DNA of 64,000 nt from Moringa oleifera (lineage: Eukaryota > Streptophyta > Magnoliopsida > Brassicales > Moringaceae): positions 1 to 64,000 of the forward strand of contig JAJFZO010000023.1 in NCBI GenBank assembly GCA_021397835.1, in the 5' to 3' direction. The translations under genes and the position numbers were made by a program. Numbering within the stretch: position 1 is the stretch's first letter; each line of letters starts with the position of its first letter. Below, one piece after another: positions 9,960 to 37,364 of this stretch. The notes under the pieces are model-generated. The model was not told the DNA's origin and made no database searches. It was given only the letters and a program-made list of their open reading frames with translations.

Positions 9960-10305
9960 TTACATGTTGATCATTGGGGGACTGCATTGACTACAATTAC
10001 ATAGGTGAAACTGGCACTTGACCCCATTGCAGCCACAGATGGCAACGCATTCTTGATCTTCCCAGCACTGCGGCTCTTCAACTCCCGTTGCATCAATTCC
10101 TCGTGACAAGCCTGTCATAATAAAATTTTGGGTAATTTAATTTGGAGAAATGACCCATTTTACAGGGAGAATAATGGTAAAATGGTTCGACTTTCAGAAA
10201 GATTGAATTCTAATGCATTTTCAACATGCAAAACAAAGAAGACTTACAGGAAGCAACAACAACTAGGGCAAGCAAGAAAACCAACTTGAGTGAAGCTTTC
10301 TCCAT
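9960..10305 (-). CDS. secreted cysteine-rich peptide 1 (CRP1), 2 exons
   Basis: Exon 1 (10305-10248) encodes MEKASLKLVFLLALVVVAS, a clear signal peptide. A 136-bp GT-AG phase-1 intron follows, then exon 2 (10111-9960), giving 69 residues in all. A Cys codon is split by the intron; after it come a short acidic linker and eight cysteines spaced 5-3-1-4-4-1-2, ending SPPMINM. The peptide is presumably exported and disulfide-bonded. The layout (signal exon, intron, Cys exon) is shared with defensin-like and nodule cysteine-rich peptides, but the spacing fits no family I can name with confidence. It is closest to CRP4. Its TATA element is degenerate (TATGAATACA, near 10356-10366). Role unknown; defence, reproduction and symbiosis are all possible. 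Confidence 0.8.
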
Positions 10306-11732
10306 TTGATTTGGTTAGCTTCTCACTGGTCTGAGTTATGTATTGTGAGGTTGTTTGTATTCATAAGCAAAGGCCAACCATTTTGATAGGTATATATCCT
10401 TAATGAGAATTCACCTTTTTAGGACAAGAAATTGAGTTAGCATTTATATGGCAAGAAAATTTGAAGCTACCAAAATGGGTGATATTGCAAATCTTAACCA
10501 GAATTTTGAAATTTCCATTTATGACCTTTGGGCCACCAAAACCAGACCATGATCTGAATAAGAGATTGGGTTGTCCTAATTCAAAGACTAGACCCATCAA
10601 ATATTTGGATCCCTTTCAAAAGACGAAAACCAAAAGAGTTCATAACAAGTCCATTAAAGGGAAAGCTACTTTCTTTAATAAAAATAAATAAATTAAATTT
10701 ACTTTTATAAAAAAATAATTTATAAAGAATGTATTATAAAATAAATATTACCTATTTTTTTTAATATGATAACACAACTAATTGATAACTTTTAAAAATT
10801 TTAATTTTATAGATGTGATATACATATTTTTTATGCACAATAATCATTATATTATTTTTAATATTTATAAATTAAAAATTGATAAAAAAATGCCAATATC
10901 CAATTGATCTTTCCATTGTCTTTGTAAGTCTGACTAATTCTTCAATCCTCCGAGTGGGCATTTTACTTAGTTGCATTACCCTTGACTATCGAGTGTAAAA
11001 TCATTTTTTCTCATTTTTTATTTTTATCAGTTTCATTTTATAAAAAAATAAAATAAGGACAAAGGATTTTCATTTAAAAGATAATAAAATTTTCATCTCA
11101 CTTTGTTTATATTCGTTAATGTAATTTTTTGTAAAATTTTAGCATAATTAGATTTTAAAATTTTAAAGTTCTTAATTGAACAATTTTTTATATCATTTTT
11201 ATTACTATTTATTTTATATCTTAATGTTTACTTATATATATATATATTATTTTTTTCACTTACAGTGCCCAATCTCAATCTCAATCGCTTTCTCTTTTTA
11301 TTTTTTTTTTCCCCTGAGAAAACAAAACTCTTATATATGTACCTTGTCTATGATCTCAGCCACAAGGAGGCCAGTATTGGAGGAGGACTGAACAGAGATG
11401 GTCTCGATTCGGAGCTCTGGAAGCTGTTGCATGATATCAAGCAACAACCTTCCCTATCTCCACATTGCAGCTACAGCAAGCCATTGCTCTTTATTATAGA
11501 CACCTCCACTGAGGAGATTCTCTCCATCTCCACGATCTTTGGCTTTGCCTCTCCCCCTCCGTTATCCTCATTTTCTTCTTATCGTGCCCTGACCCCCACC
11601 CGCCCTTCTGCTCCTTGAAGTCATCACTGTTGCTCGTCGTAATGGTAGTAGTTGAGGTGGTGGTGGTCATCTGTGATAAACAAAGTCTGTGAGTTTTGCC
11701 TTCATTATTGCTTGCAGGTGTTTTACTTGGTC
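10306..11732. other. CRP1 promoter and AT-rich intergenic DNA
   Basis: About 10306-10510 carries the upstream blocks shared by the peptide genes (see the promoter finding). Beyond lies AT-rich DNA. Positions 11020-11235 match 29226-29445, a dispersed repeat. A plus-strand open frame at 11265-11618 has no recognisable domain and I do not call it a gene. Confidence 0.5.
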
Positions 11733-11869
11733 AACTTTTAAGTTGGTTTCTACTCCAAGACATGTGTTCCCCCGCTGAATCTATTGTCCGCAAGGTGGTT
11801 CAAGAAGCAATTGCTGCTGGCCCCAAGACAGCTGCAGTACTGCTGAGGCTCCACTTCCATGACTTTTAA
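11733..11869 (+). pseudogene. class III peroxidase fragment
   Basis: The reading CSPAESIVRKVVQEAI followed by AAVLLRLHFHDF is the N-terminal helix and distal-histidine region of plant class III (secretory) peroxidases, which normally read FYxxTCPxAExIV and RLHFHDCF. Here FYSKTC sits in another frame, two bases off, a stop lies just upstream, and the frame ends in TAA where FHDCF should continue. No other peroxidase exon is recognisable nearby. The fragment is a relic, with the catalytic His motif still legible. Confidence 0.7.
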
Positions 11870-13504
11870 GTTACTAGAATAGATGAAAGTTCTTGTATTT
11901 GCCATCTCTGGGGAAACATTGAATGGAGACTGTACCGGGTTCACATCAAAATTCACAATGTCTTTGAGTTTGAGATTATGGTGGCTTAGATTTTGGACAT
12001 TTCTCAGATCTTACAACAATTGACAGCTTAAAAGGACTTTATGCAGGGGCAACGTCATCATTTCTTGGGATGGCTTTTAAGAGGTTGCTACATTTGGGCA
12101 TCTATTCTCAGACCGAACAGGAACTGCGTGTATGATAGCACACCATTTCTTAATTGTATTTGAAACCCCAATGAATACCGAGAACCATAATAGCCAATTA
12201 CTAGCTTCCTATATTATGTACATATAATTCTTTGAAGGTGTCACGCACCTATTACCCACTTGGTTTTTGTATTTTACTTCGTAATGAAGGGAGGAGTACA
12301 GAGTAATTTGCCGCAACCCCAAGCAATAATTCCTTCTGCCGCTTTTAGTGGGGTAGCTATCATGACTTTTGTATTGGAGTCACTGCTGGCTTCTTCATGC
12401 AAAGAAGGCTCTACAGCTTCTCTCCAGGTGGTAGCTCTCATTCAGCGACCCATCCCAAATTACTGCCCCATCTCAAGGCCTAATGCCCAGTGAGTTCCAA
12501 AGAAGAAAAACATACCAGTCAGGTTGGAGAACTGAGCTCATATTTGGTGATCAAATCTTCGGCAACATCAAGAATGGCTTCACCTAATAGCATTAACTCC
12601 GATACTTATTTGGATCAACCATGGAAACAAGAGGAATCAAGAACGGAGGAGGAGAGGGAGAAGAAGAAAATGGGCATTTTTTGAAATTTCATGGTGGTCT
12701 TTCAATAACTGTTAACATGGAAAAGATAATACCGTTAACATTAAAAAGTTTAAGTTAAGATTGTTTTCTTTCCATACACAAATTTGAAAGTTTGAATCCA
12801 TTTATATTGAATTTGTTATTTAAAATAAATATAAAATTTTTACTTTAAATTTAAATATATTTAAATTAAATTTAAATATATTTAAATTAAATTTAATTAA
12901 ATTTTTAATTAAAATTTTTTTATCCTTTTTTGTTTTTATAAAATAAAAAATTATGAAAACAAAAAATGACTCCAAAATGGAAAAATGGTTATACAAATGG
13001 GAGGGGGGCAGACGATCGCATCCTGCCCCGGCTTACATGCTATAGGAGGAGATGACTGCACCGCGTTGAGCTTGCCATTGCTGTCAAATTTGATCGACCT
13101 CTTTTAGTGTAACGGATTCCTCATCGTGGTTGTCAATTTCGAAGTTTCTCTGCAAAAGAATTGGTTGAGAGTGTGGGTGATGAAGGAATATAACCCTAGT
13201 CAAGGGTACTGCACTCCGACTTACAGAGAGAATAGGGAGGTTTTGATGCCGATAGAGGTAGGCTCGTGTGATCTCTTGGAAGTTGGGACCAGCCTCTACA
13301 GACCAAACATGTCGCAATTCCCGCGAGATAAACGATTAATTTGCCAAAATCGGTGATCAGAAGGAGTCCGACAAACAGAATCTGTCGATTTATTACTTAG
13401 TAAACTGAATTGCTTACATAGTTCAAGAAAACTAATCAAAACCTCTATGATTTATTCCAGGAGAGAGAAATGTTCTTAGCATCCTCCACACAGATTACTA
13501 TCGA
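11870..13504. other. intergenic, low-information, partly AT-rich
   Basis: Short plus-strand open frames at 12260-12493, 12490-12684 and 13126-13356 have no recognised domain. About 12720-13000 is AT-rich with TTTAAATATA-type direct repeats. From 13310 the sequence is the 3' flank of CRP2, alike to those of CRP1 and CRP4. Confidence 0.45.
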
Positions 13505-13847
13505 TTACACGTTCAACTTTGGCGGATGGCCGCATCTACAATCACAGAGTTGCAATCGGCACCTGACGTTCTTGCAGCCGCAGAAGGTATAACAGTCTTC
13601 ATGCCTCAAGCACTCGATCGACTGTTCACCCTCCCTTGCCTCGGTTCCTTCTGAGAAGCCTGTCATGGTAAATGTTTGGATTATTAAGAGGAATGACCCA
13701 TTTTGCAGGGAAATAATGGTAAATGACCGGATTGCCCTTGACATAATATTCTCATTGTTTAAAGCTGAAATAGCACTTTCATTACACTGGTTTTTCTGTC
13801 CAACAAGTGCAAAAGTAAAAAGAAAGTAAAAACCAAACCACATCCAT

Positions 13848-13887
<40 letters not shown>

Positions 13888-14219
13888 AGGGTTTGTCAAT
13901 AAATTGAGATTGAATCAAAACTTGTAAATTCACTCTTTTAGGAAATATAAGAACCATGAAATGATATTTTCAATCTAATAAATTGTTCTGATTTGCTAAA
14001 CGATTCAATTGAATTTAAATTTTTTATCCAATCAAAATTCATTAAGATAATGACATTGAATCATAGATTACGAGCCTCTTGATGATATTGAGACATATTA
14101 GCAAAGTAATCACAAAAGCACAAAAACGCAATAAAAATAATAAGAGGAGAAAAAGACTTGCATGAAGCAATGAAAACAAGGGCAATCAAGAAAACAAGCT
14201 TGAGTGAGGCTTTCTCCAT
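13505..14219 (-). CDS. secreted cysteine-rich peptide 2 (CRP2), 2 exons, GC-AG intron
   Basis: Exon 1 (14219-14162) encodes MEKASLKLVFLIALVFIAS. Exon 2 (13659-13505) encodes the linker EGTEAREGEQSIE and eight cysteines spaced 5-3-1-4-4-1-1, ending GHPPKLNV. The total is 70 residues. The 502-bp intron begins with GC (GCAAGT) where paralogues have GT, a tolerated but less efficient donor. It contains a TA microsatellite (about 13853-13882). The TATA element is at 14280-14290. The last Cys pair is one residue closer than in the other members. The gene belongs to the CRP1-CRP12 family; function unknown. Confidence 0.75.
13853..13882. repeat. (TA)n microsatellite in the CRP2 intron
   Basis: About fifteen alternating TA units lie inside the CRP2 intron. 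They may explain why this intron is longer than the roughly 80-140 bp of the other intact members. Confidence 0.9.
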
Positions 14220-15643
14220 TGGATTGGATTGATTTTATCACATGAGCTTTATTATGTGCTAATATATTATGATATTACATGTATTTATAGGCAAATAGGA
14301 TTACTTTGATAGGTATCTTAATAAGAATATAACTTTTTTCTATGGTCAAATTCAATTTAATGAAGAGAAAACTGTTAGCATTATTTTATGGCAAGATATT
14401 TGTAGGTGGTCTGGGTGATATGTTAATCTTAAGTGCAAGTTTCAAATAGACACAGACGTTAAATTTGAGTTACTTTGAATCTTATTAAAAAACTTAAAAA
14501 TTAAAATATATAAATTAAAAATTTTATATAATGAATTTTAACTTAAAAATTTACATAAACATAAAAAATATAATCAAACTTCCATCACAAAAAAAAATTT
14601 AAAACTTTTTTGAATATTAAAAACTATATATTTATAATTTTAAACTATCAAGAATTGTAACAAATATTTCATGAATTAAAAATTATTTATTTAAAAAATA
14701 AATTTAAAATAAAATATAAATTTATTTAAATTATTTTTAAAATATTTAAATATAAAATACTATTAATTTAGCCTCGTTGAGTGAAACTTCAAATTCAAAA
14801 ATTTCTTTTCGATATTCATCTTTATATCTATGAAATATAAAATTTAATTTAAATTTCAACAAGCCAAATGAGCTTGTTACATATATAATCTGTTAGCTTG
14901 TTTAATTAAGCTTAATGAATTAACCTATCAACATTTTAATTCAAAATTTAAGATTGGTGATCTATTTATTTATTAAACAGACTAATCTTAATTCAAATTA
15001 ATTATTGCCACGTCATGACCCTGATTTCCTCCATAAAATAAAAACATGGTTTCTGACTTCTCACTTCCTTTGTACTTGAAGAATAATTTGCTTTTATCAT
15101 AGTTTATCTGAATCTTTTGTTAATCTAAATTATACTGAAATTTTGATAAAATAATAATATGTGATAATTTAATAAAATTAGTAATTAAAATTTATTTAAT
15201 TATTATATTAAATTATCAAAATATTGTTTAAATTTTTATTAAAAATTCAATTCAAATTAATAAAATATTTTTTTTCTTCTGTGACTCTCTGCTAGTTCAG
15301 GTTTGTTGCTTTTGAGGTTAGGTCAATTGGGCTCTTTCTCTACCTCTCATCCAACTATTATTGATGGGCCTAAAACATTGGCCCATTTTTCTTTGCCAGA
15401 GTGATCAGACCTATCCAGATCCCACACCCTACAACATACTATTAATTTATACTATTAACATGAAACAAATTCTTTAGAGGAATTAATCCTGAAATCCCAT
15501 GTAGAATTTGTTGATTTATATCTTGGAAACTAGCTTTGCTCATACTGTTGGACAAAATTAACCAAAGCTGGTCTGATCTATTCGAGAAAGAGTATCAATG
15601 TTCTTGGCATATGCTCGAAGCCAATGGTCACTATAGTTTATTG
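14220..15643. other. CRP2 promoter, AT-rich spacer and CRP3 3' flank
   Basis: The conserved CRP upstream blocks occupy about 14270-14440. From 14450 to 15460 the DNA is AT-rich and non-coding. From about 15470 the sequence matches the 3' flank of CRP5 (19860-20000), including the string that carries the two stop-proximal regions. Confidence 0.5.
14280..14290 (-). promoter_or_regulatory. TATA box of CRP2
   Basis: CTATAAATACA on the minus strand, about 60 bases before the ATG, at the same spacing and with the same sequence as in CRP3, CRP8 and CRP9. Confidence 0.65.
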
Positions 15644-16003
15644 TTATGGATTACATGCACTTTCAACTTTGGCAGCAGGAGGAGGACATCCTCCACATTG
15701 ACAAACGTAAAAATTGCATGTGTTGTTTTTGCAGCCCCGGCAAGGACCCACACCGCAGTCGGAATTTGTGTAGCACTCGATCGGTTGTCCCCCTGGAATC
15801 ACCTCAATTGCATTTGACGACAAACCTGTCAAAATTAAAGGAAAATGATTTATTTTATCAAAAAATAATGACTGAGGACTTAGTTTATTTTAAAAAAATA
15901 AAAAAACATGAAAAAAATATTTATATAAAAAGAAAACTTAATTACATGAAGCAATAACAATTAGAGCGGACAAGAAAACCAACTTGAGTGAAGCTTTTTC
16001 CAT
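15644..16003 (-). CDS. secreted cysteine-rich peptide 3 (CRP3), 2 exons
   Basis: Exon 1 (16003-15946) encodes the signal peptide MEKASLKLVFLSALIVIAS. A 120-bp intron starting GTAATT is followed by exon 2 (15825-15644); the total is 79 residues. The mature part runs SSNAIEVIPGGQPIE, then cysteines spaced 5-4-2-4-4-1-2, and a longer tail, PPPAAKVESACNP, that adds a ninth Cys. Exon 2 is nearly identical to that of CRP5, 4.4 kb away, so the two arose by recent duplication or conversion. Secreted peptide of unknown function. Confidence 0.8.
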
Positions 16004-18748: not shown

Positions 18749-19094
18749 TCACACTAATGGTTCTCTTATCTTTGGGGGAATGCATGGAGAGCAATCGCAT
18801 AGGTGGTTAACACACTTGGCCTCCTCGCATTTGCAGACCAAAATGCAGTATTGATCTTCCGAGCACTGTGGCTCTTCAACCACCGTTGCCTCAATTCCGT
18901 GCGACAAGCCTGTCATAATAGACATTTGGGTAAGTTAATTTGGAGAGAATGACCCATTTTACACGAAAAATAATGATAAAATCACTGGATTTTCAAAGAG
19001 ATTGAATTCTAATGCATTTTTAACATGAAAACTTACAGGAAGCAATCACAAGAAGGGCAAGCAAGAAAACCAAGTTGAGTGAAGCTTTGGCCAT
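18749..19094 (-). CDS. secreted cysteine-rich peptide 4 (CRP4), 2 exons
   Basis: Exon 1 (19094-19037) encodes MAKASLNLVFLLALLVIAS; exon 2 (18909-18749) brings the total to 72 residues across a 127-bp GT-AG intron. Cysteines are spaced 5-3-1-4-4-1-2, as in CRP1, its closest paralogue (shared GIEAT and EEPQC). Relative to CRP1 a deletion of some 30 bp has removed the old stop, so the frame runs into former 3' UTR and ends KIREPLV. The TATA element is at 19154-19163. Secreted peptide of unknown function. Confidence 0.78.
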
Positions 19095-20003
19095 TGGACT
19101 TGATTAGCTTCTCACTTTGAGCTTTATTCTGAGTTATGTGTTGTGAGGTTGTCTGTATTTATAAAAGCGAAGGTCAAACTCTATTTAATGAAAGAAAAAA
19201 AGAGTTAGCATTTATATGGCATGAAATTTGGAAATTACTATATTGGCTGATATGCAAATCTTAAGGTCAACTCATGAATTTATTACTTTAAAAAGAGGAC
19301 CAGGATGGAGAGCCCACAAGACCATTGGAGGTCATGAAAAGCTCATTAAAAGAAGAACTCGTCAACTGGCTAACATAATAGGATGGAGATCAACGACATC
19401 AAAGAACCTTGGTAGAAGGGAAATGAGGAAGAGAGAGAAAGAGAAACAGACAAAGTAAAAAGAATTTTTTTTTTTTTTTAAATCTCAATGTCACCTTGGT
19501 AAAATCCAACTACTATTAATGGGGAGAATGTCCCATTAACAAAAAAATTTGTATCGACTTGATATAAAATTTTAAGATTTATTTCATTATTTTTTTAATA
19601 TCAAAGCATGATTCGGTACTCAAGCTACATTTTAAGATTTTTTAAAATATTTATCAAATATAAAATATATATTTATCACATATGTAGAATTAAATTTTTC
19701 TTTAAAAAGTTATCAAATTTTAGTAGATTATCATATTGTAGTGATTTATGTTTCTTAATTTTTTAAAAATTTATATATTTTTTACATGTTAGTTCCTCCT
19801 ACAAAGGCGAACTTAACTTCATTTAATTAATTTATTTTTTTACTAATCCGAAAATGCCAAATAAAATATGCTCATTTACAGCTTAGAAACCGGTTTTTCT
19901 CACATTGTTGGACAAAATTAACCAAAGGCTGTCCGATTTATTCGAGAAAGAGTATCAATGCTCTTACCATCTCCTCGACACTAATGGTCACTATAGTTTA
20001 TTG
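19095..20003. other. CRP4 promoter and spacer to CRP5
   Basis: The shared CRP upstream blocks lie at 19190-19265. The plus-strand open frame at 19228-19458 overlaps them and has no recognisable domain. From 19460 to 19860 the DNA is AT-rich, then the CRP5 3' flank begins. Confidence 0.45.
19154..19163 (-). promoter_or_regulatory. TATA box of CRP4
   Basis: TATAAATACA on the minus strand, about 60 bases upstream of the CRP4 ATG. Confidence 0.6.
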
Positions 20004-20327
20004 TTATGGATTACATGCACTTTCAACTTTGGCAGCAGGAGGAGGACATCCTCCACATTGGCAAACGTAAAAATTGCATGTGTTGTTTTTGCAGCCCCGG
20101 CAAGGACCCACGCCGCAGTCGGAATTTGTGTAGCACTCGATGGGTTGTCCCCCTGGACTCACCTCAATGGCATTTGACGACAGACCTGTCAAAATTAAAG
20201 GAAAATGATCTATTTAATCCAAAAATAACGAATTATGACCTAATTTAAAAAATAAAAAAATAAATAAAAGGGAAACAATAACAATTAGAGCAACCAAAAA
20301 AACGAAGCTGAGTGAAGCTTTCTCCAT
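20004..20327 (-). pseudogene. CRP5, near-copy of CRP3 with the splice donor lost
   Basis: Exon 2 (20185-20004) is almost identical to CRP3 (same eight-Cys core and ACNP tail) and has an intact acceptor. Exon 1 from the ATG at 20327 encodes MEKASLSFVFLVALIVIVS. Where CRP3 has the donor GTAATT, this copy reads CCCTTTTATT (about 20271-20262), so no GT or GC donor exists at the right phase. Unless another donor within exon 1 is used, the peptide cannot be made. The TATA element at 20394-20403 is retained. Likely a recent pseudogene. Confidence 0.65.
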
Positions 20328-20928
20328 TGGATTTGATTGGCTTTTTATCACTTGAGAGCTTTATTATGTCCTATGTAATACTGTTAGTTTATATGTATTT
20401 ATAAGAAAATTAAGGGAATTATTTTGATAGTTATCTTATTGAGCATATATACTCTTTTATAGTCAAATTCTATTTAATGAAAAAAAAAAAAAGAGAAAGC
20501 AATTAGCATTTTTATATGTCAAAGATATTATTAAGTTGCCGTATTTGGTGTGATATGCATATCCTAAGAGCTTCAAATCTGATTAACATCATCTCCTCCT
20601 CCTTATCCCCAAAATCAAGGACGTAATTAATGAAACAAAGTAAGGTTAAGGATGTCTTTTCCGTCTTTCTTCTTTGTAATCATATCATTTTTTGTTTACT
20701 TCCAAATTCTCCATTTAATAAAAATCAAAGGGAAGGTTTCATCCATTGGTAAAGATATGATACGGGTACACTCAATTTTTCAATATATTTAATAAAATTA
20801 AATATACAATACTACAATATATTTAATATTCTTTTAATATTTTAATTTTTGTATATGTACATATATTATAAAAATAATATATGTACATATATACTAAAAT
20901 AGTATTGGTCACTATAGCTTATTGTTGA

Positions 20929-21065
20929 TTACATATTCAGCCTTGCCAGAAGGTGATCAAATCCGCAAATGCAAAAGTTACCGTTGCAGTGATTGTCTTC
21001 GCATCCATTGGAGAAGATAAGGCACGCTTGAGCACTTGTGCACTCCACCGATTTTTCTATTTGAC
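20929..21065 (-). pseudogene. CRP6, decayed cysteine-rich exon
   Basis: The minus-strand reading EKSVECTSAQACLIFSNG, continuing through CNGNFCICG and ending ARLNM, keeps six cysteines (spacing 5-6-4-4-1) and the family's terminal LNM/LNV before TAA. The usual acceptor and GLSSN-type linker are missing, and no signal-peptide exon is found within the next kilobase. The exon is an old relic of the family. Confidence 0.6.
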
Positions 21066-22255
21066 ATTGTAAACTAGTAATTCAAATTAAGATCGTCTAA
21101 CTTATATGAATCGCAATAGTTGGATTGAAAAATCTAAACCAAACTCAAAATCAAATGGAACCCCATTCGTCCCTTACCAAGGGGAAACAAATTTAAATTG
21201 AAACCTGAATCAATAAGACATTCTAATTATATATTCTTAACATATTTAACACCCACCTTTGCTATGGTCTCCGAAGCCTCATATTTCATAAGCTCAATGA
21301 AAACTCAATAGGTCATGGTCTTAAGGTTGTTGTTTTTGGTATAATAAACAGTACCAAAAAAACTTGAAAAGATATTTGACTTACTTCAAAAAAAAAAAAT
21401 TGAAATAAGTTATTGGAACAAGTAAGCATATAAAATTTTACTTTTGTTAGATCGAATTTAGAGTTTAATTTTATTTTTTTAAGACAAAATCGCTCCCAAT
21501 TAATGCCGATAGGTTGATTGTAGATATCTTTTAGAATACAATAATCTCTTTTTTTTTAAAAAAAATAGTACTTCTTCAATTTATAAAAATAATGAACCAA
21601 TTTATGCTTACTATCTTTCAAAAACAACTTCTTATTTTTAATGAATGAAGAATGAATGATTTAATTGTAATGAATTATTAATTTGGTTACGAGAGATGAT
21701 CTTTATAAATGTCAAAATGTGACTTTAATTAAGGAGCGAGAGCCAAAGGGAGATGATTTATTTTAATGGAAAGACATTCATTCAAAAATTAGAAGATATA
21801 TTTTTTTTTCTACATTTTTATTCAAAGACCTTTTTTCTCTACAATTTTCTTTGTATTGTACTTTTTAAAAATTAATAAAAAAATATTGACATCAAAATCT
21901 TTCTTTCATCTTTATAAATAATGACATATTTATCCTTTTGACTAAGAGAGTTACAAAGAATTACGAAATATAATAAAAAAGCTTAATCATGATTCATATC
22001 TAACACCCATAACATATACCATTATATTATTAGTTTGTAATTTGAATGATTAGCGGAAGGAAACAAATTCTTTAGAGGAATTAATCCGAAATGCCAAAAA
22101 TAATATGTTGATTTATAGCTCGAAAACTAGCTTAATTTGCTCACATTGTTTGATAAAATTAATCAAAAGGATGTATTATTTATTCGAAAAAAATATCACT
22201 GTTCATAGCACATCCTCGATACTAATAACTACGACAATTTATTATTATTGATTGA
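21066..22255. other. AT-rich spacer; the segmental duplication begins near 21932
   Basis: No gene is seen to 21930. From there the sequence matches 29733 onward in the same direction. It contains the 3' flank of CRP7 (22060-22250), which is alike to that of CRP9. Confidence 0.5.
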
Positions 22256-22564
22256 TTACACATTCAACTTTGGGGGAGGAGGACATTTGCCGCAAATACA
22301 ATAACCTCTGCATATGTGAATTGCACAGCCTGGGCAAAAACTGATGCAATCGTTATCGTTGTGGCAAATGAATGATTGTTCCCCTTCCTTTGCCTCGATT
22401 TCATTTGATGACAAACCTATTATAAATATCATTGAGTAAATCATCTATTTCATGAAAAATAATGAATCATGATCTAATTTTCAAAAAAAAAAAAAAAAAC
22501 ACTTACATAAAGTAATAACAACGAGAGCGACCAAGAAAACGAACTTGAGTGAAGCTTTCTCCAT
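22256..22564 (-). CDS. secreted cysteine-rich peptide 7 (CRP7), 2 exons
   Basis: Exon 1 (22564-22507) encodes MEKASLKFVFLVALVVITL. Exon 2 (22416-22256) follows a 90-bp GT-AG intron; the total is 72 residues. The mature part has an acidic linker (SSNEIEAKEGEQS) and cysteines spaced 5-3-2-4-3-1-2, ending PPPPKLNV. The direct paralogue in the distal duplication copy is CRP9; CRP8 is an inverted relative. The TATA element is weak (TATAAACA, 22627-22634). Secreted peptide of unknown function. Confidence 0.8.
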
Positions 22565-23959: not shown

Positions 23960-24183
23960 CTTTTATTAGAATATGTTTATCGAAGCTGCTAAGGTAACCT
24001 TTGAATGAATTGGCTGTTACACTTGGCTTGTCTTGACAAGTTCGAGTAGCTTTGCATTTTTTTTTTTGCACTGTAAAAATAAGATAAGAAGAAATATGTC
24101 AAAAAAAAGAAAAAAGAACTTACTTGAAGCCATGACAATATAATGACAACCAAGAAAACAAACTTGAGTGAGAATTTTTCCAT
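23960..24183 (-). CDS. short secreted peptide with CRP-type signal exon (CRP10a)
   Basis: Exon 1 (24183-24124) encodes MEKFSLKFVFLVVIILSWLQ, a signal peptide like that of the CRPs but ending in phase 0 at CAA|GTAAGT. Downstream, an acceptor near 24070 opens a frame reading KCKATRTCQDKPSVTANSF, with only two cysteines. The frame continues past 23960 and its stop is not firmly placed, so the end given is approximate. The whole unit recurs at 31970-31730 as CRP10b. It may be a truncated CRP or a separate short peptide. Exon borders are tentative. Confidence 0.45.
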
Positions 24184-24549
24184 TTTGATTTGGTTAATTT
24201 GTCACTTTGAGCTTAGATCAAGAGGTTAACTTCAGTTTAATCCATTTAGTCTCAATTTGGATCTTGATCGGGAGATCAACTTGAGCCTTGCACCTTGAGA
24301 TATCAAGATCGAACTACAAGAGTCTAGGTTGAACCTTATCTTGTTTTCCAATTTCTTAGTTGAGACTAAAATGAGGTAAAACTTTATGATAAGAGCATGT
24401 TACACTCCTTATGGAGACAGAGACCCCAAGTTTATAAGTACATAAGGTATTCTCTTACTTAATATATATTTATTGTTATCCTCTCAAGGCTTTCTAACTA
24501 GCTTAAATGGTAGATGTTTCTCTTCGTTTTTTCTTTTTGTAGATCTTTA
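24184..24549. other. spacer between CRP10a and the gag-like remnant
   Basis: No gene is recognised. The segment matches about 32000-32400 of the distal copy. Confidence 0.4.
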
Positions 24550-25016
24550 ACGACTCAAGCCAAAGAGTTTTGGCGACTGTATAATAATTAATGTCATCCT
24601 AGGATCATGACTCTTTCTAAACAAGCATCTCAAAAATTTTGGACGAGCTTGTTGCCAAGAGAAAAACTCAACGAACCACAAATTTAATTGTACAATGGGA
24701 ATTTGGAGCATGACGTACACATGAAGAGATTTGAGGATGGCTCTTGCTCTAAAAGATATTTGATGTTATTAGATGCAAACTCTTTTGAGTCACCATAATT
24801 AGTGATATTTTAAACTCATTCAGTTCCTAAAGTTTGAAAAGATTAATTATTTTTCTAACTTTGTAGCTTTCTTCGTGACTTGATTAGTGAGCAAGGTTAG
24901 GCATATTAAGGATTACCTTCAAGCTCTACAACAATGTAGTAATAAATCCTTAAGGGGCTATATTGAAAGATTCAACAAGAAGACACAACAGGTAAGAGAC
25001 ATGGTAGACCTTAAAA
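24550..25016 (+). mobile_element. gag-like retrotransposon remnant, proximal copy
   Basis: The plus-strand reading KDYLQALQQCSNKSLRGYIE, continuing RFNKKTQQVRDM, resembles the Ty3/gypsy gag segment that usually reads NESLRDYIxRFN. Stops and shifts surround it and no LTR or pol is seen. It breaks off abruptly near 25016, where an inverted copy of the CRP9 region begins. The distal copy at 32450-33100 goes further. Confidence 0.5.
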
Positions 25017-25399
25017 CACCTCATTTTTTATTTGGGTTAATATTACAAAGCAATTTTACATATAAATTTTTAATTAAGTTTAAATTGGTTGTAGCTTCTA
25101 ATTTTTAAAAAAGATTATTTAAATAAAAAGTCTTGCACAACGAATTTTAATTTAAAACTATCATAAATATTAAAAATATTTGAATTATGATCAATTTTTT
25201 TGAGAATTTTTAATTTTTTAATTTGAATTTTAATTATTTACAACAAGTTTGAATTAGTCAACTGTGTTAAGATTTGCATATCTGTCAATTTGGTAACTAG
25301 TAAATGTCTTGCCATATAGAGTGTTACTCTCATTATGATGAAGTTGACTGTGAAAGGCATATTCTCATTAGGATACCTACCAAATTAATTCCCTTTGCC

Positions 25400-25409
25400 T
25401 ATAAATACA
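25400..25409 (+). promoter_or_regulatory. TATA box of CRP8
   Basis: TATAAATACA about 63 bases upstream of the CRP8 ATG, matching its minus-strand paralogues. Confidence 0.65.
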
Positions 25410-25471
25410 GGTAACCTCAAAACACATATCACATAACAAAGCTCAAGTAGTAATAAAGTCAATCAAATCCA

Positions 25472-25783
25472 ATGGAGAAGGCTTCACTCAAGTTCATGTT
25501 CTTGATTGCTCTCGTTGTCATTGCTTCGTGTAAGTTTTTTTTTTTTTTTTTTGGAAATTAGATCATGATTCATTATTTTTAATAAAAATAGATCATTCAC
25601 TCAATACTATTTATAATAGGTTTGTCATCAAATGGAATCGAGGCAAGGGAAGGGGAACAATCAATCGTGTGCCACAACGATAACGACTGCATCAGTTATT
25701 GCCCAGTTGGCTGCGAAATTCACAAATGCAGAGGTTATTGTATTTGCGAAAAATGTCCTCCTCCCCCAAAGTTGAATGTGTAA
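25472..25783 (+). CDS. secreted cysteine-rich peptide 8 (CRP8), 2 exons, the only plus-strand member
   Basis: Exon 1 (25472-25529) encodes MEKASLKFMFLIALVVIAS. Exon 2 (25620-25783) follows a 90-bp GT-AG intron; the total is 73 residues. The mature part carries SSNGIEAREGEQS and cysteines spaced 5-3-3-4-3-1-2, ending PPPPKLNV. It is very close to CRP9 and CRP7, with one extra residue between Cys3 and Cys4. The gene sits within an inverted segment that includes its own promoter and 3' flank, so it moved as a working unit. Function unknown. Confidence 0.82.
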
Positions 25784-26116
25784 TCGAACAATAACAATAA
25801 ATTGTAGTGGCTATTAGTATTGAGGATGTACAATGAACAATGATATTTTTTGTTGAATAAATGATACATCCTTTTGATAAATTTTGTCAAACAATGTGAG
25901 CAAATTAAGCTATTTTTCAAGCTATAAATCAACATATTATTTTTAGCATTTCGGATTAATTTCTCTAAAGTATTTGTTTCCTTGTGCTAATCATAAATTA
26001 ATAATATAATGGTATATGTTACGGGTGTTGGATATGAATCATGATTAAGCTTCTTTATTATATCCCGTAATTCTTTGTCACTAAAAATATGGTAAAAGAT
26101 AAAGATTATAAAACAT

Positions 26117-26167
26117 GATAAGCAAAGCAATGAAGAAAACAAACTTGATTAGTGAGGACCTCTCCAT
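26117..26167 (-). pseudogene. orphan CRP signal-peptide exon
   Basis: An ATG at 26167 opens MERSSLIKFVFFIALLIM, matching CRP12 exon 1 in the distal copy. The following sequence lacks a GT donor at the expected place, and exon 2 is absent because the adjacent DNA is the inverted CRP8 segment. This is a first exon stranded by rearrangement. Confidence 0.7.
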
Positions 26168-26805
26168 TGGATTTTGATTGACTTATTGCTTCAGTTTTAA
26201 TATGAGTTGCTAATAATGTATATTTTTATAAGCAAAGGCCACAATTATGGTTAATGAGGATATAACTGTATGGCCGAATTTTATGTAATAAAAGTAGAAA
26301 AAAGTTACCATTATTTTATATATATGGCAAGGATATTAATAGGTTGCCATGATTGGTGATGTGAAAATCTTGACTATTTTAATTTAAAATATAAAATATC
26401 AAATCCAAATATGTTTAGTCTTAAATTTTTTTAATAATATTTAAATTGAAACTATACTTAAAAATTAAACTTTGAAAAGATATAAGTTTAATTTTTTTAT
26501 ATATTTACCTTTTTTTTCTTCTTCCAAGGACAATAGAATTTGAGTTTAAATTATTAATTTATATAAATTATGATAATGGAGATAATATTTAGCCCAATCT
26601 AAGGATAATTTAATATGTATAGCTTTAGAAATTAACCCAAAAATAATATTAAGTTAATAAATAACTTAACAATCTCTAGTGGGCAGGCATTTGAACTATT
26701 CAAAGCCCAGAGAAGGCGGCATTTGGGCGATTGGGTCTTGGATACATAGGCCTCCTCTACCCTTGTGAGAAAGACCAAATGTGCCCAAAGAACTCAGGCT
26801 CAGGC

Positions 26806-26809
<4 letters not shown>

Positions 26810-26838
<29 letters not shown>
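26810..26838. repeat. (GA)n microsatellite
   Basis: About fourteen GA units; the matching spot in the distal copy (about 35394-35425) has an interrupted GA tract. Confidence 0.9.
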
Positions 26839-26843
<5 letters not shown>

Positions 26844-27349
26844 AGAATTCGGTGCAAGATTTAGATATGGGAAAAAATGAATCTCCCCAATTGCTCCCCA
26901 CTCAGAAAATTGTAGCAGCCTGGTCACGTTGCATGGAAGGAACCCTAAATGATTCAATGCCAGTGGATTCTTATGTAGTACTGTAAACATAGAATCTGCT
27001 TTGCATTTTCTAAACCAACTGCCAATCGCATTTCTGGTTGGGCAGCCCCACGGGCTTGAGAACAACACAAAATCTTCTCACCAGGTAACATTTGCGGAAA
27101 CAGAGCAGCAAAGGATAAGGGAGGCATGAAAATATAGGAGCCATATGTTGCAAATAAGAGAGGATGTATTATGAAGAACGGCGACAAACACAGCACAAAG
27201 TTTAAGATCGCAGACCTAATCCGCACAGGATTACCCATCAAGAGTATGCTGTTTTATTCAGGGCACTACTAATTAAGTTACTCTCAAGGAGCATGCGGGC
27301 CAATACACATCCAGTTGCTGGTATCACGGTAGTCCTCCCATGAGGCGCT

Positions 27350-28723
27350 TCAGCCTTGGAGACCAATAATACCTGCAAACAAACAAACAGAAACTTGGGT
27401 AAAGTGGAAGAGAAGATTTGAATCAATGCAAAACCACATATTAGTCTTTCCAAAGATCAAAGGACGCTACACGATATTGATATGCTGCACTTCAAGAAAG
27501 CTCGAGGAGATGAGTAGGATGGACATAAAAGCCACTAAGAAAATCAATCGGTTCGAATGAACGCTTCAAAAGCATAAATTTATACTGATAAACCAGAAAA
27601 CTTCAGTGCAACCTAAGTCTCTAGCCAAACGAGATAATTAGAGTAAGATCCTTGACTACAATTGCATTTAAGTAAAGTAGAGGACTGTGGTGTTTTAAAT
27701 CAAGTCTCATGAAAGGAAAATGACAAATTTGTTTCAGAAGAAAGGGCAAGTTTACTTACCACAAGCAACTCTGCCACCAGCATTTCCAGTAGTCTTGCTA
27801 AGTTCATGCCCTCCTGAATAGATGGAAGAAGAAATGTATGAAAAACCACAAATGGAAGAATACATATACATAATACAAATTCTAAGCAAATGTCCATCAT
27901 AAGTCATAGATATTGGTGAATAACCTCGAAATGATCAGTTACTCAGCAGGCAGAAGTAAAAGAAGTCTTTGTGCTACCGCATAGAAATGCTAATAAAAAT
28001 ATCTTTAAGATTAAGGTCAAAACCATGATGGTAAGTGTGACTGCAAAACCCTCAAGGTAACTCAGAAAAACCCCACGAGCCCTTTCCTCCCTTCAAAGGG
28101 AAGATTAACTCATTTTGGCAGTGTATGAGGTCCAGTTAAAAGTTTATTTAGTATGTCAGTCTCTAAGATCTCTCCTTACTATCATCATCCAAATTCGCAG
28201 TTTAACTTGATGTAGAGGTTATCACCTCAAACGTGAAGCAAGAATAGCAACACAAGTACCTTCTCTTTGTTCAATGAAAATAAGATTTAAAGAGCAAACA
28301 TTTTGAAAGTGAGTCAACCAGCCAAAATTTACCCATAACATTAGGCAGAAATTAGAAGACGACTTTAAAAGAACTACCAAAACAAAAACTATTTTTAGCA
28401 AAGATTACCCTTTCCAAGATCATCAGGATCTGCATGGACAATGACAGCCCTTCCAGTAATGGAATTTGGTCCAGTAAGAGGAATCTGCTAAAACAGACAA
28501 ATGCATTAGAAGAAATAATGTCGCAAAGGCAGCATTCATGAGCCTACGAAGAATGAAATAAAACATAAAGTAGAAACACAAGGAGATAAACAAAATGCCT
28601 GACTGTCGACAGTTGTGAAACTAACAGTACCTGAACCACAAGATGTGTTAGTAATGCAGAAGTATCAAACACCATTAAACAAATAATAATACATACATAC
28701 TATTGATCAAAAACTTGTGTATT

Positions 28724-28793
<70 letters not shown>

Positions 28794-29198
28794 AGAGATC
28801 AAAAACCAACAACTTGCACACCCAACCACAATAACTTTTCATCTTTAATACACGAGTATCAGGATAGCAAGCTTAACATCATCACCAACATTTATATTCC
28901 CCAAATCACCAGTATGACGAACATCATCCTCTGGTGCACCATGTTCTTTGCCAGCAGGATTAAAATGTGGACCTGCAAACAGGTTGATCAGAGGAACGAA
29001 TATGGAATTTGGCAAAAGAAGTTCATAGTCATTAATTGTTTTTATCCCAATTCATCAAGCACATTGAGAAGAAATATACAAGTCAGTGGACCATACCAGT
29101 TGACATGCAACCATTTGTTGTATCCCCAAGGGCATCAACATCGAAGCCATGACGCCCAGGCTTAAGGCCGGGTATAATTCCCGTCACAGTTGTTGGAG
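27350..29198 (-). pseudogene. Cu/Zn superoxide dismutase, 5'-truncated copy with lost copper ligands
   Basis: Copies of CSD1 exons 2-7 lie at 29198-29097, 28972-28877, 28630-28599, 28484-28409, 27813-27760 and 27372-27350. Exon 1 (25 codons) and the 5' UTR are missing; similarity stops at 29225 in intron 1. In exon 2 the copper-site motif HGFHVH reads HGFDVD, so the ligands at His45 and His47 are both Asp. The exon 3 donor GGTAAG has become GTTAAG and the exon 4 donor GTATTT has become GCATTT. Exons 6 and 7 remain intact, ending GIIGLQG. No active enzyme can come from this copy. It lies in the proximal segmental duplication, upstream of CRP9. Confidence 0.9.
28719..28789. repeat. compound (TG)n(AG)n microsatellite
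   Basis: A TG tract is followed by about twenty AG units in an intron of the SOD pseudogene. The intact gene has a longer GT and shorter AG tract at the same spot (37327-37378). Confidence 0.9.
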
Positions 29199-29225
29199 CT
29201 GGAAAACAAAATAACAAAGGAAATT

Positions 29226-29445
29226 TTATTTTTTTATTTAATAAAAATAAAATAAGGAAGAAGAATTTTCATTTAAAAATTAATAAAATTTCCATATTAT
29301 TTTCTTCACATTGTTAATTTTAATTTTGAGTAAAATTTTGAATAAACATGGATTAGTTTTTGGAAGTTTGAAGTTTTTAATTCAATAATTTTTCATATCG
29401 TTTTTATTATTATTTATTTTATACATTAAAATTTTATTTTTATTT
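29226..29445. repeat. dispersed AT-rich repeat at the duplication breakpoint
   Basis: This resembles 11020-11235 along most of its length, with shared strings such as AAAATAAGGA, TTTTCATTTAAAA and TTTTTATTA. It abuts the truncation point of the SOD pseudogene. Confidence 0.5.
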
Positions 29446-30058
29446 AAAAATAATAAATAAATTTTTTTATCAAATCAATTTATATAAAATTTATTAGATC
29501 AACTCATTTGTAATTAATTAAATTGACTTATTTAAATTCGACAAAATAACCAAATTCATAGATATGCCGCAAATGTTCATTTGATCCACTCAATTAATTT
29601 AAAAAGCCATCAATTTTTTATTTTTATTCTTTTAATGTGCATCAAGCTTCGATTGTGAGTCCATAGGCCAATCCGACCATAGACCCATGTAATGACTCGT
29701 TGCATGATTGTTGTTGATGGGGAAGCGTTATTGATCCTTTTGACTAAGAGCGTTACAAAGAATTACGGGAGATAATAAAGAAGTTTAATCATGATTTGTA
29801 TCCAACACCCATAACATATACCATTATATTATTAATTTATAATTTGAATTATTAGCATGAGAAAACAAGTACTTTAAAGAAATTAATCCGAAATGCCAAA
29901 ATTAATATGTTGATTTATAGCTCGAAAACTACCTTAATTTGCTCACATTGTTTGACAAAATTAATCAAAAGCCTGTATTATTTATTCGACAAAAAATATC
30001 ACTGTTCATTGCACATCCTCAATACTAATAGCCACTATAATTTATTATTATTGATTGA
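29446..30058. other. AT-rich spacer and CRP9 3' flank
   Basis: No gene is seen. The distal duplication copy begins near 29733; from about 29870 the sequence is the CRP9 3' flank, alike to those of CRP7 and CRP8. Confidence 0.5.
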
Positions 30059-30360
30059 TTACACATTCAACTTTGAGGGAGGAGGACATTTATCGCAAAT
30101 ACAAAAACCACTGCATTTGTGAATTGCACAGCCTGGGCAAAAACTGATGCAGTCATTATCATTCTGGCACATGATTGATTGTTCCTCTTCCCTTGCCTCG
30201 ATTCCATTCGATGACAAACCTATTATAAATAGTATTGAGTAAATGATCTATTTTTATTAAAAATAATGAATCATGATCTAATTTTCCAAAAAAAAAACTT
30301 ACATGAAGCAATGACAATGAGAGCAACCAAGAAAACGAACTTGAGTGAAGCCTTCTCCAT
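30059..30360 (-). CDS. secreted cysteine-rich peptide 9 (CRP9), 2 exons
   Basis: Exon 1 (30360-30303) encodes MEKASLKFVFLVALIVIAS. An 83-bp GT-AG intron and exon 2 (30219-30059) give 72 residues. The mature region has SSNGIEAREEEQS and cysteines spaced 5-3-2-4-3-1-2, ending PPPSKLNV. It is the distal-copy partner of CRP7 and the parent or sibling of inverted CRP8. The TATA element is at 30423-30433. Secreted peptide of unknown function. Confidence 0.82.
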
Positions 30361-30422
30361 TGGATTTTATTGACTTTACCACTACTTGAGCTTTGTTATG
30401 TGATATGTGTTTTGAGGTTGCC

Positions 30423-30433
30423 TGTATTTATAG
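30423..30433 (-). promoter_or_regulatory. TATA box of CRP9
   Basis: CTATAAATACA on the minus strand about 63 bases upstream of the CRP9 ATG. Confidence 0.65.
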
Positions 30434-31729
30434 GCAAAGGGAATTAATTTGGTAGGCATCCTAATGAGAATATGCCTTTCACAGTCAACTTCATCATAAT
30501 GAGAGTAACACTCTATATGGCAAGACATTTACTAGTTACCAAATTGGCAGATATGCAAATCTTAATACTGTTGACTAATTCAAACTTGTTGTAAATAATT
30601 AAAATTCAAATTAAAAAATTAAATTTTTTTATAAAAATTTTGACCATAATTTAAATATATTTAAATATTTATGATAAATTTTAAATTAAAATTCATTGTA
30701 CAAAAAATTTTATTTAAATAATATTTTTTAAGAAAAATTAAAAGCTACAACCAATTTAAACTTAATTAAAAATTTATATGTAAAATTACTTTATAATATT
30801 AACCCAAATAAAAAAGGAGATGTTTGAAGATCATGAATCAAAAATGAATTTATAATATGTAATAATAGTATTGTAATGCACATTATTAAAATAAGTAATC
30901 AAAAATGAAGATAAAAATCAATTTTAAAAATGTCAAACACAAAATAGGAAGTTTTTTTTCTTTCACTGTTATTTTCAAATAAAATTATGTAATTTTGATT
31001 AAAAATATTTTAAATGATTTTTTAAAACAATGTGTCATTTTCATTAAAATAAATAAATTTTATTTGATAACATGACACCATTTTAACTTTTTAGATTAAT
31101 AATAATGCATTGAAAATACTAAAAACTTGATTTACTGTTCAACAAGTGAAATTGGTGGATTCTAATTGACTATAAAACATTGGTATAATATCATGATCTT
31201 TTATTTTTATTTTTTATTGACATTAATAGAAAGAAAATTAATTCAAATTAAATTTTTTTAACTCATTTGTATTATAATAACTGGATTGAAAAAACTAAAC
31301 CAAATTTGAAATGGAATGGGACAAGTTAAGGTTTTTTTTTTCCTTTCATTTTAAAAAACAAAGATTTGTCCCTAATCAACATAAATCAAATTAAAATTAA
31401 AACCTATCTCAACAAGACATACTAATCATAAATTACCATATTTAAGTTAACACTCACTATTGCCATGGGTCTCAAAATTTAAATTTTTTTATTAAACTAA
31501 GTATTATTAAGCTCTTCATAAAATGATAATACATGTCAATTTAATAAAATCAATAAATAATTTTTTTATTTTAATATATTAAATTATTAATTTTTTCTTA
31601 TTTTTGATTAAAAATTCAATGCTGATTAAAATTAATAAAATAAATTTTATCTTAAGCTTCATATATTATTAGCCCAATGAAAGCTCAAAAAAATTAATAA
31701 ACACCTGTATGAGTCTTATATCCTCGAAA
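30434..31729. other. CRP9 promoter and AT-rich spacer
   Basis: Promoter blocks extend to about 30570. The remainder is AT-rich and matches 22750-23960 of the proximal copy. No gene is seen. Confidence 0.5.
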
Positions 31730-31970
31730 CTAACGGTCAAGAGCCCTATAGTTTATTAGAACATGTTTATTGGTGCTGCTAAGGTAACCTTTGAATGAAT
31801 TGGTTGTTACACTTGGCTTGTCTTGACAAGTCTTAGTAGCTTTGCATTTTTCTTGCATTGGAAAATAAAATAAGAAGAAATATGTTAAAAAAGAAAATAG
31901 GAAACTTACTTGAAGCCACAACAATATAACAACAACCAAGAAAGCAAACTCAAAAGAGAATTTTTTCCAT
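31730..31970 (-). pseudogene. CRP10b, distal copy of the two-Cys peptide with a frameshift after the ATG
   Basis: The unit parallels CRP10a. One extra A in the run after the ATG (31970) shifts the frame, and TGA follows within seven codons. The old frame stays open (KKFSFEFAFLVVVILLWLQ, then KCKATKTCQDKPSVTTNSF) and ends at 31730. It can only be reached from an upstream ATG at 32011, which would add fourteen hydrophilic residues before the signal sequence. Probably non-functional, unless that upstream start is used. Confidence 0.5.
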
Positions 31971-32449
31971 TTTAATTTGGTTAATTTATCACTTTGAGCT
32001 TTGTTATGCATGAGTTATATATGATTAAATGATATATATTTATACTAATTTATGCAAGCATCTCACATATTGAGCTTAGATCAAGAGATTTACTTCAGTT
32101 TAATCCATTTAGTTTCATTCTGGATCTTAATCGAGAGATCAACCTAAGCTGTACCCCTTCAGATATTAACACCCAACTACAAGAGTCTAGATTGGACCCT
32201 ACTTTGTCGGCCAATTTCTTAGTTAAGACTAAGATAGGCTAAAACTTTCTGATAGGAGCATGTTACACTTCCCTATAAAGACATGACCCTAAATTTTTAA
32301 GTAGATAAGGTATTCTCTTACTTAATATACATTTATTATTATTCCTTCGAGATTTTTTAACTAGTTTAAATGATAGATGTTTCTCTTTGTCTTTTTCTTG
32401 TTGTAGATTTTTGATGACTCATGTCGAAGAGTTTTAGCGATAAGATAAT
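31971..32449. other. spacer upstream of CRP10b
   Basis: Contains TATA-like AT-rich DNA and sequence matching 24190-24550. No gene is recognised. Confidence 0.4.
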
Positions 32450-33100
32450 AATTAATGTCGTCCATGGTGATCAAGTCAAAGACTTATGGCTTTTTCTAAA
32501 CAAGCATCTCAAAAATTTTGGACAAGCTTGTTGCTAAGAAAAAATCCTATGAGCCACGAATTTAATTATACAATGAGAATTTAGATCACGGCATACACAT
32601 GAAGAGCTTTAAGGATGGCTCCTGCTCTAAAAGAATCTGATGCCACTAGATGCTAAGTCACCATAACTGAAGATACTTTAAACTCTTTCAGTCCCTAAAG
32701 TCTGAAAAAATTAATTATTTTTCTAACTTTGTAATTCTGTCCATGACTTGATTAATAAGTAAGATTAAAAAGATTAAGGACGACCTTCAAGCTCTATAAC
32801 AATGTGATAACAGTCTTTAAAGAACTATATTAAAAAGATTCAACATGAAGACACAACAAGTAAGAGACCTGATAAATGACTCAATAGTTGACAATTTTAT
32901 GGGAAGATTGCAACCCTCGTTTCTTTTCAATCCCTCGCTATAAATAAGCTAAAAACGTCTGTAACATTGATTGAGGGAGCTGAGAAAGTGGCCGTTATCT
33001 TGGATACAACAGCAGAACAAGCCTGCAAAAACATATAGACCACGACATGAAAAGATGAGAGATGACAGGCGCAAGAGCAGATTAGATAATGGTTTAGAAA
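32450..33100 (+). mobile_element. gag-like retrotransposon remnant, distal copy
   Basis: Matches the proximal remnant and continues further with readings such as VDNFMGRLQPSFLFNPSL and AEKVAVILDTTAEQACKN. These resemble the later part of Ty3/gypsy gag. Stops are frequent and no LTR, pol or integrase is seen, so this is an old fragment carried along in the duplication. Confidence 0.5.
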
Positions 33101-33314
33101 AGTGAAGCTTGGACAGAAGAGTTCAAACAGTGTCCCATAGAAATGAGGATCGATCCTCACAAAGGTCAAGGGCAAGTTCTCAATAATTATAATTTTTCAT
33201 TTTTTTTTTATATTAATATTAAAATTCAACACATTTTGCATTAGTACAATATATTTATCCAAGATTATAATTTTTGGGTTTATTTATTTATTTAACCTTT
33301 CTCCATTGGAGTAG

Positions 33315-34592
33315 CTAGTGCAATCTCCAATAAATTGGTGGTAGTTTTGCAAAGCTGTCACATGCACAATAGCATCCGAAATCGGAGCACTGGACTCTAC
33401 AGCCGCATTTGATCACGCAATCTTGGGGGGTTCCGCACTCTGGCCGCGGACCCACTTGCCTTGGCTCCACCCCTCCTGCTACAGCCCGTTGTAACCAGCC
33501 TATCATAAATAAATAAATAAATAAATAAATATTTAAATTATTTTAAAAAAAGTCTACTTTTTAAAAAAGTAATGACTAATTAATTAGTTTTTTATATCTT
33601 TTAAAATTTTAAAAAATATTATTTTAATTTTTATCTTAAATTTTAAAATATTTTAAAATAGATTTTAATAAATAAAAAATAATTAAGTTAGATATTATTA
33701 AAAAATAAAATATTATGAATATTTAAATTAAAAATTTTGTATTATAAATTTTAATTTGAAATTTTGTTATAGATGTAAAAAATATTCAAGCATCACAAAA
33801 AAAATTTAGAGTTTTTTGAAAACTAAAATTTTTAAAAATTTTACTGTAAAAAATTTATAGTAAATAGCTTATAAATAAAAAATTATTTAAAATTAAAAGA
33901 TTGATTTGAAAAGTGTAAAATTTATTCAAATTATTTTTAAATATTTTAATAATAAAAATATACTTATTTTTATAATAATTTAACTTGATATTTAATTTGA
34001 TTATTTCTTGCCAATCATTTTAAAAATATTTTAAAATATAAAATAAATATTTAAAAAATATTTTTAATTTTTAAATAATATTTACTATTTTTTCTTTAAA
34101 AAACGAATGAATTCTAATTTCTATTGATATAAAATAGTTAACATATCCTTACCATCTTGTAGTTTGAAGTTGAAAGATAACACCTTCATTCAAATAAGTT
34201 TATAAGTATAAAAATAAATAAATGAATATCTTAAAAAAAAAAAAAACACATCAAGTGGATTATAATTTAACTAGTTGGTCAATAAAACTTGTTTTTTAAA
34301 TATATTTTAAATAATATATTCAATAAAATTAAAATATAAATATCATCACATTGAAATTACAATTGATATGAAATATATGTTTTTTTAAACGAATCAATTT
34401 ATTTTTATTTTAAACAACATAAGATTAAAAATCATGGGCTTTTCAAAAATTGCACCATATTAAACTTAAAAAAATGTAAGGAAATTAAAAAAAAAAAAAA
34501 GGACTAAAAGTATGGTAAAAGGTAAAGACTATAAAAGGAGACTTACAAGAAGCAATGAAGAAAACAAACTTGATTAGTGAGGACCCTTCCAT
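33315..34592 (-). CDS. divergent cysteine-rich peptide 12 (CRP12), 2 exons, 1-kb intron
   Basis: Exon 1 (34592-34547) encodes MEGSSLIKFVFFIAS, four residues shorter in the hydrophobic core than the other family members. A 1047-bp GT-AG phase-1 intron, AT-rich, separates it from exon 2 (33499-33315). The total is 76 residues in an uninterrupted frame. Mature cysteines are spaced 5-3-1-3-4-1-1; the linker is Gly/Pro/Arg-rich instead of acidic and the C-terminus (LPPIYWRLH) differs from the usual PPxxKLNV. The base composition of exon 2 is much more GC-rich than its surroundings. This is an old, divergent family member, possibly with a different target. The long intron leaves some doubt that the two exons belong together, though phase and length agree. 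Confidence 0.65.

Positions 34593-37321: not shown

Positions 37322-37364
<43 letters not shown>

Follow-up and report, generated by a model that had tools for sequence, protein, structure and literature searches.

A tandem array of genes that encode small, secreted peptides rich in cysteine was found in Moringa oleifera within a 64,000-nucleotide stretch (contig JAJFZO010000023.1 of assembly GCA_021397835.1, positions 1 to 64,000 of the forward strand; hereafter the window), where it occupies positions 9,960 to 34,592. Moringa belongs to the Brassicales and is a relative of cabbage, not a legume. In keeping with this origin, a 2S albumin encoded in the genome is 98% identical, along its entire length, to one on record for M. 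oleifera. At a probability of about 0.62, we read the array as tandemly clustered genes for secreted, defensin-like peptides that form a lineage-specific Moringa branch near the end of the plant defensin-like superfamily that resembles late nodulins and nodule cysteine-rich (NCR) peptides. The most fitting place for the family is among the defensin-like peptides, as a variant that has eight cysteines and relatives resembling late nodulins; we do not claim membership in the NCR family proper. The array is most likely a fast-turnover set of putative secreted defence peptides.

Scans for the cysteine core and the signal exon detected 13 loci (M1 to M13) carrying one or both, and thus the claim of a first-pass annotation of the window that at least twelve such loci are present holds. 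These comprised eight complete two-exon genes (M1, M2, M3, M4, M7, M9, M11 and M13) and five broken loci: one without a splice donor, one relic of exon 2 and three relics of exon 1. A scripted splice scan made for this gene plan, which searched the window for a signal exon, donor, acceptor and cysteine-rich exon 2, returned exactly these eight complete genes and no others. When all six frames of the 64 kb were scanned with the core pattern, nine matches were obtained, every one of them an array member.

A phase-1 intron that cuts a Cys codon (T|G...AG|GY) was present in all eight complete genes, and the core had the spacing given previously, C-x5-C-x(3-4)-C-x(1-3)-C-x(3-4)-C-x(3-4)-C-x-C-x(1-2)-C, with eight invariant cysteines. 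The split Cys falls inside the signal peptide or at its end, and therefore the mature core holds eight cysteines; the mature part of M3 has nine. The first-pass annotation had described eight members as agreeing exactly. Eight complete genes with the same intron phase were indeed found, but the wording is too strong because intron length (83 to 1,047 bases) and protein length (69 to 79 residues) vary, and M2 has a GC-AG intron where the other seven are GT-AG. The mature peptide, encoded by one exon, is about 42 to 53 residues long, and the net charge of the window peptides ranges from -4 to +1 (acidic to about neutral). With assumed cleavage sites, the masses calculated for the reduced peptides are 4.6 to 5.9 kDa. 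TATAAA was located 66 to 76 bases 5' of the ATG in eight of nine members, the exception being M1.

The coding frame of the array is under constraint, as revealed by pairwise substitution counts over the signal and mature exons of M1 to M5, M7, M9 and M11 (M13 was excluded). The ratio of non-synonymous to synonymous substitution rates (dN/dS) was below 1 in all 28 pairs, with a range of 0.20 to 0.75 that is to be read with dS near saturation in several pairs, and no sign of positive selection was detected in these 28 comparisons over both exons. For the signal exon alone, dN exceeded dS in one pair (M1-M5). In the mature exon, M3 and M5 are separated by five synonymous changes and one non-synonymous change.

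Copies in the array have been recently gained and lost. Three long blocks at the end of contig C626 match the start of the window contig at 99.5 to 99.7% identity, and the most plausible reading is that C626 represents the other haplotype. These two sequences diverge structurally between window positions 19408-21927 and C626:1916476-1921284, where the window carries the broken M5 and the relic M6 and C626 carries a distinct, apparently intact member with a donor (read by eye). The C626 copy of M2 is without the start of exon 2, and the M1 donor on C626 reads C|GT; with the same acceptor, the junction codon would therefore be Arg instead of Cys. Within the array, block duplications were detected in tandem at a spacing of about 7.8 kb and about 80 to 91% identity, together with an inverted copy around M9. 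Comparison to C626 also brought out a duplication of about 2.5 kb and about 90% identity that lies outside the peptide genes (window 26744-29223 and 35331-37804). The earlier description of a live gene family that is not noise is supported by the dN/dS values below 1 in every pair and by the copy differences between haplotypes.

Relatives of the array were detected elsewhere in the genome (279.5 Mb in 669 contigs) by protein searches. Contig C549 had 13 places at E <=10 between 2,225 and 2,349 kb (the weakest at E 2.25, and one with stops at E 0.025) and seven additional places at E <=0.05 in the same stretch; three further places were found on C12 and three on C24. Some of these could be allelic copies. 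Several relatives carry two domains, one of six and one of eight cysteines, in a single exon 2, and the genome holds four clusters in all: the eight-cysteine array, two-domain genes on C549 and on C12, and six-cysteine genes on C24. The donor T|GTTAGT, in phase 1, was common to all eight paralogue models. A profile built from eight window cores scored 10 to 28 bits against nine domain-2 sequences, scores that were reached by 0, 0, 0, 0, 2, 2, 3, 7 and 12 of 200 Cys-fixed shuffles of each. A single-domain C549 gene and the relic M6 scored above all 200 shuffles, and a C24 sequence was reached by 6 of 200. Alignment by hhalign of the window cores to eight domain-2 sequences gave a probability of 95.8 and an E of 8e-9. 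Judged by these profile comparisons, the window cores are shown to be related to domain 2 of the two-domain paralogues.

Two more sets of places were noted apart from these clusters. Three places on C11:3080343-3114173 matched M4 weakly (E 3e-4 to 0.0016), each across signal and core within a single open frame, and are perhaps intronless copies. A lone relative at C35:1749060-1749203 has a different eight-Cys spacing; its Late nodulin score, obtained from an approximate splice model, was 18.4 bits.

The placement near late nodulins is based on Pfam family PF07127 (Late nodulin), which is the profile of NCR peptides, with which legumes control the bacteria in their nodules, and which has a curated whole-protein cut-off of 30.4 bits. 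Matches below this threshold were observed for four of the eight window members (E 0.0064, 0.086, 0.27 and 1.3), and three had no Pfam match at all. Of seven two-domain proteins or exons, one exceeded the cut-off: the C12 protein at 34.5 bits, with its exon 2 alone at 31.1. The other six gave 30.1, 28.4, 27.8, 15.1, 14.8 and no match; a C549 model with a borrowed exon 1 scored 31.9 and was not counted. None of five shuffles that kept the cysteines and the signal region matched PF07127, and therefore the Late nodulin match rests on more than these two features. The label 'unclassified' in the first-pass annotation thus stands insofar as no window member passed any Pfam cut-off, but it is too strong at the level of the superfamily, as the cores match domain 2 and one paralogue with this domain passes PF07127. 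The same annotation had named a strong profile match to a known family as the result that would count against it. Such a match was found indirectly and narrowly, through one two-domain paralogue and its summed domains, because the C12 whole protein passes and neither domain does so alone. The lean to the late-nodulin profile was less expected. NCR peptides had been set aside in that annotation on the basis of cysteine spacing; six of the eight core cysteines can be fitted onto the Late nodulin/NCR framework, with two extra to it.

The likeness extends to gene plan, with a signal exon, a phase-1 intron, a short mature peptide and a tandem family in common, in addition to the one two-domain paralogue above the whole-protein cut-off. 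By the definition given in a 2025 review, NCR peptides are encoded by two exons, with the intron in phase 1 and placed a few codons upstream of the first Cys of the mature peptide (PMC12461094), and all eight complete genes here share this plan. According to that review, canonical NCRs are known from one legume clade only (PMC12461094). A 2022 study reports a phylogeny that groups NCRs with actinorhizal nodule defensins and proposes that nodule defensin-like peptides were part of the original nodulation toolkit (PMC9387825). The nodule-specific defensins of Datisca and Alnus, described there as phylogenetically joined to legume NCRs, are by description likewise defensin-like; they differ in that their hosts nodulate and in the acidic domain at the C-terminus of DgDef1 to DgDef4 (PMC9387825).

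The exon plan, cysteine pattern and modest-confidence structural models fit defensin-like peptides of the cysteine-stabilised alpha-beta (CS-alpha-beta) type with a putative fourth disulfide. Two predicted structures had a helix and strands which, with the two-exon structure and eight cysteines, are features of plant defensins and defensin-like peptides. The array peptides differ from plant defensins in that none of eight window members and five paralogues matched the gamma-thionin family of Pfam at E up to 10, and their spacing is tighter than that of classical plant defensins. The spacing of M1 and M4 equals that of the chains listed from the Protein Data Bank (PDB) for the scorpion alpha-KTx 6 group, short four-disulfide K+-channel peptides, except for the C3-C4 loop (5 residues in those chains and 1 to 3 in the array). 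Scorpion peptides in the PDB gave a best sequence E of 0.088, which is not significant, and weak structural matches; this likeness is likely convergence within one fold.

Several results weigh against a defensin-like branch close to late nodulins. The PF07127 cut-off was reached by none of the eight window members (best 17.3 bits), four of the eight did not match this family even at E 10, and M4 matched scorpion Toxin_2 alone (16.1 bits, E 0.014, cut-off 25.1). The C12 whole-protein pass is the sum over two matched stretches, and singly its domains fell below the cut-off, at 25.0 with and 21.3 without the signal for domain 1 and 18.0 for domain 2. Against the window profile, domain 1, the NCR-like half, scored within the shuffles in all nine cases (reached by 48 to 184 of 200). 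The structural models had predicted template modelling (pTM) scores of 0.42 and 0.46, and across five models from the first prediction the predicted local confidence (pLDDT) spanned 70.9 to 45.5. Neither model had a Foldseek match at E <= 0.001, the top PDB sequence match was an unrelated designed protein (E 0.048), and the protein database search found no homologue. In addition, NCRs are said in the 2025 review to be without the defensin helix (PMC12461094), and therefore a real helix would favour defensins over NCRs.

A stronger version holds that the four clusters of Moringa, a malvid that lies outside the nodulating clade, form a large clade of genuine late-nodulin/NCR relatives; it appears to us rather doubtful. 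Moringa is not known to nodulate. Differences from late nodulins are the non-legume host, the scores of window members and single paralogue domains below the cut-off, and the helix in the models. If the stronger version were true, the NCR branch would predate nodulation, with a first role in defence or another secreted function and later recruitment by legumes. The origin of legume NCR peptides is argued mainly from nodulating plants (PMC12461094; PMC9387825). Among the open-licence literature matches listed, no title or abstract opening concerned the Moringa eight-cysteine family. A large late-nodulin-like family in a tree of the Brassicales would offer an outgroup to test whether the branch predates nodulation.

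On the favoured reading of a defensin-like defence set, the mature peptide would fold as a cysteine-stabilised alpha-beta unit, in which the helix holds C2-x3-C3, the final strand holds C6-x-C7 and C8 supplies a fourth, closing disulfide. Once secreted, it may act extracellularly against microbes or small herbivores, its target being a membrane, receptor or channel to which it binds. The variable residues between the fixed cysteines would set the target, and copy turnover would keep the set diverse. With a net charge of -4 to +1, the peptides are less likely to lyse cells in the manner of strongly cationic peptides than to bind a specific target. The eight-Cys core is also a compact scaffold with variable loops, and a cluster whose copies differ between haplotypes is suited to the study of the birth and loss of peptide arsenals.

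Fast turnover could also be driven by mating recognition if the peptides were reproductive signals in pollen-stigma interaction or pollen-tube attraction. Signals of the SCR/LURE type are defensin-like peptides of the Brassicales, the order to which Moringa belongs; the near-neutral to acidic charge and the haplotype differences in copies are compatible with such a role, and an Arabidopsis defensin-like cluster is reported to have one (PMC3525529). By contrast, all 28 dN/dS values over both exons fell below 1, with no sign of positive selection, and no Pfam match to such families was obtained; on balance we consider a reproductive role unlikely. Protection of seed or leaf by squash-type cystine-knot peptides that inhibit proteases or amylases is a less probable account still. 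It draws on C-x5-C-x3-C-x-C in M1, M2, M4 and M13 and on three of the 20 PDB rows listed, which are squash-inhibitor sequences or designs (6mm4, 6msu and 1h9i; E 0.12 to 0.4). The six-Cys knot spacing of squash trypsin inhibitors is however not that of the array, which has eight invariant core cysteines and a C-x-C-x(1-2)-C end; the models show helix and strands, and the two-domain relatives tend to late nodulin.

The five broken loci among 13 and the broken M2 allele of the other haplotype are what a decaying, mostly unexpressed remnant of an old expansion would leave. Against this stand the eight intact genes, the dN/dS below 1 in tested pairs, the TATAAA retained in eight of nine members and, on the other haplotype, an apparently intact relative at the position of the broken M5, and we judge decay to be quite improbable.

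Array members lie on the minus strand except for M9. M1 (9960..10305) has exon 1 at 10249-10305, exon 2 including the stop at 9960-10109 and an intron of 136 bases, and M2 (13505..14219) has exon 1 at 14163-14219, exon 2 at 13505-13657 and a 502-base GC-AG intron. These are followed by M3 (15644..16003; intron 120) and M4 (18749..19094; intron 127). M5 (20004..20327) retains two open exons, including a good exon 2 with the same mature core as M3, and has lost the splice donor; the exon-2 relic M6 (20929..21051) has six core cysteines. M7 (22256..22564; intron 90) and the exon-1 relic M8 (24136..24183) precede M9 (25472..25783, plus strand; intron 90), which is complete and inverted relative to the rest of the array. 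Beyond it are the exon-1 relic M10 (26114..26167), the complete M11 (30059..30360; intron 83), and M12, an exon-1 relic with a stop at approximately 31922..31970 (hand-counted). M13 (33315..34592), complete and the most divergent member, has exon 1 at 34548-34592, exon 2 at 33315-33497 and an intron of 1047 bases.

Flanking genes at window 3-3814 and 58691-61171 resembled, by eye, FRIGIDA-like and multi-pass membrane proteins. Local GC skew was strong (0.42) at 44001-48000 and differed from the rest of the window; an open frame at 47838-48140 is reverse-transcriptase-like by eye. The start of rbcL had 37 matches in the genome at 76 to 99% identity, and the two that were read further were decayed copies. 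This match count fits the record share of plastid DNA reported for Moringa (PMC11110229).
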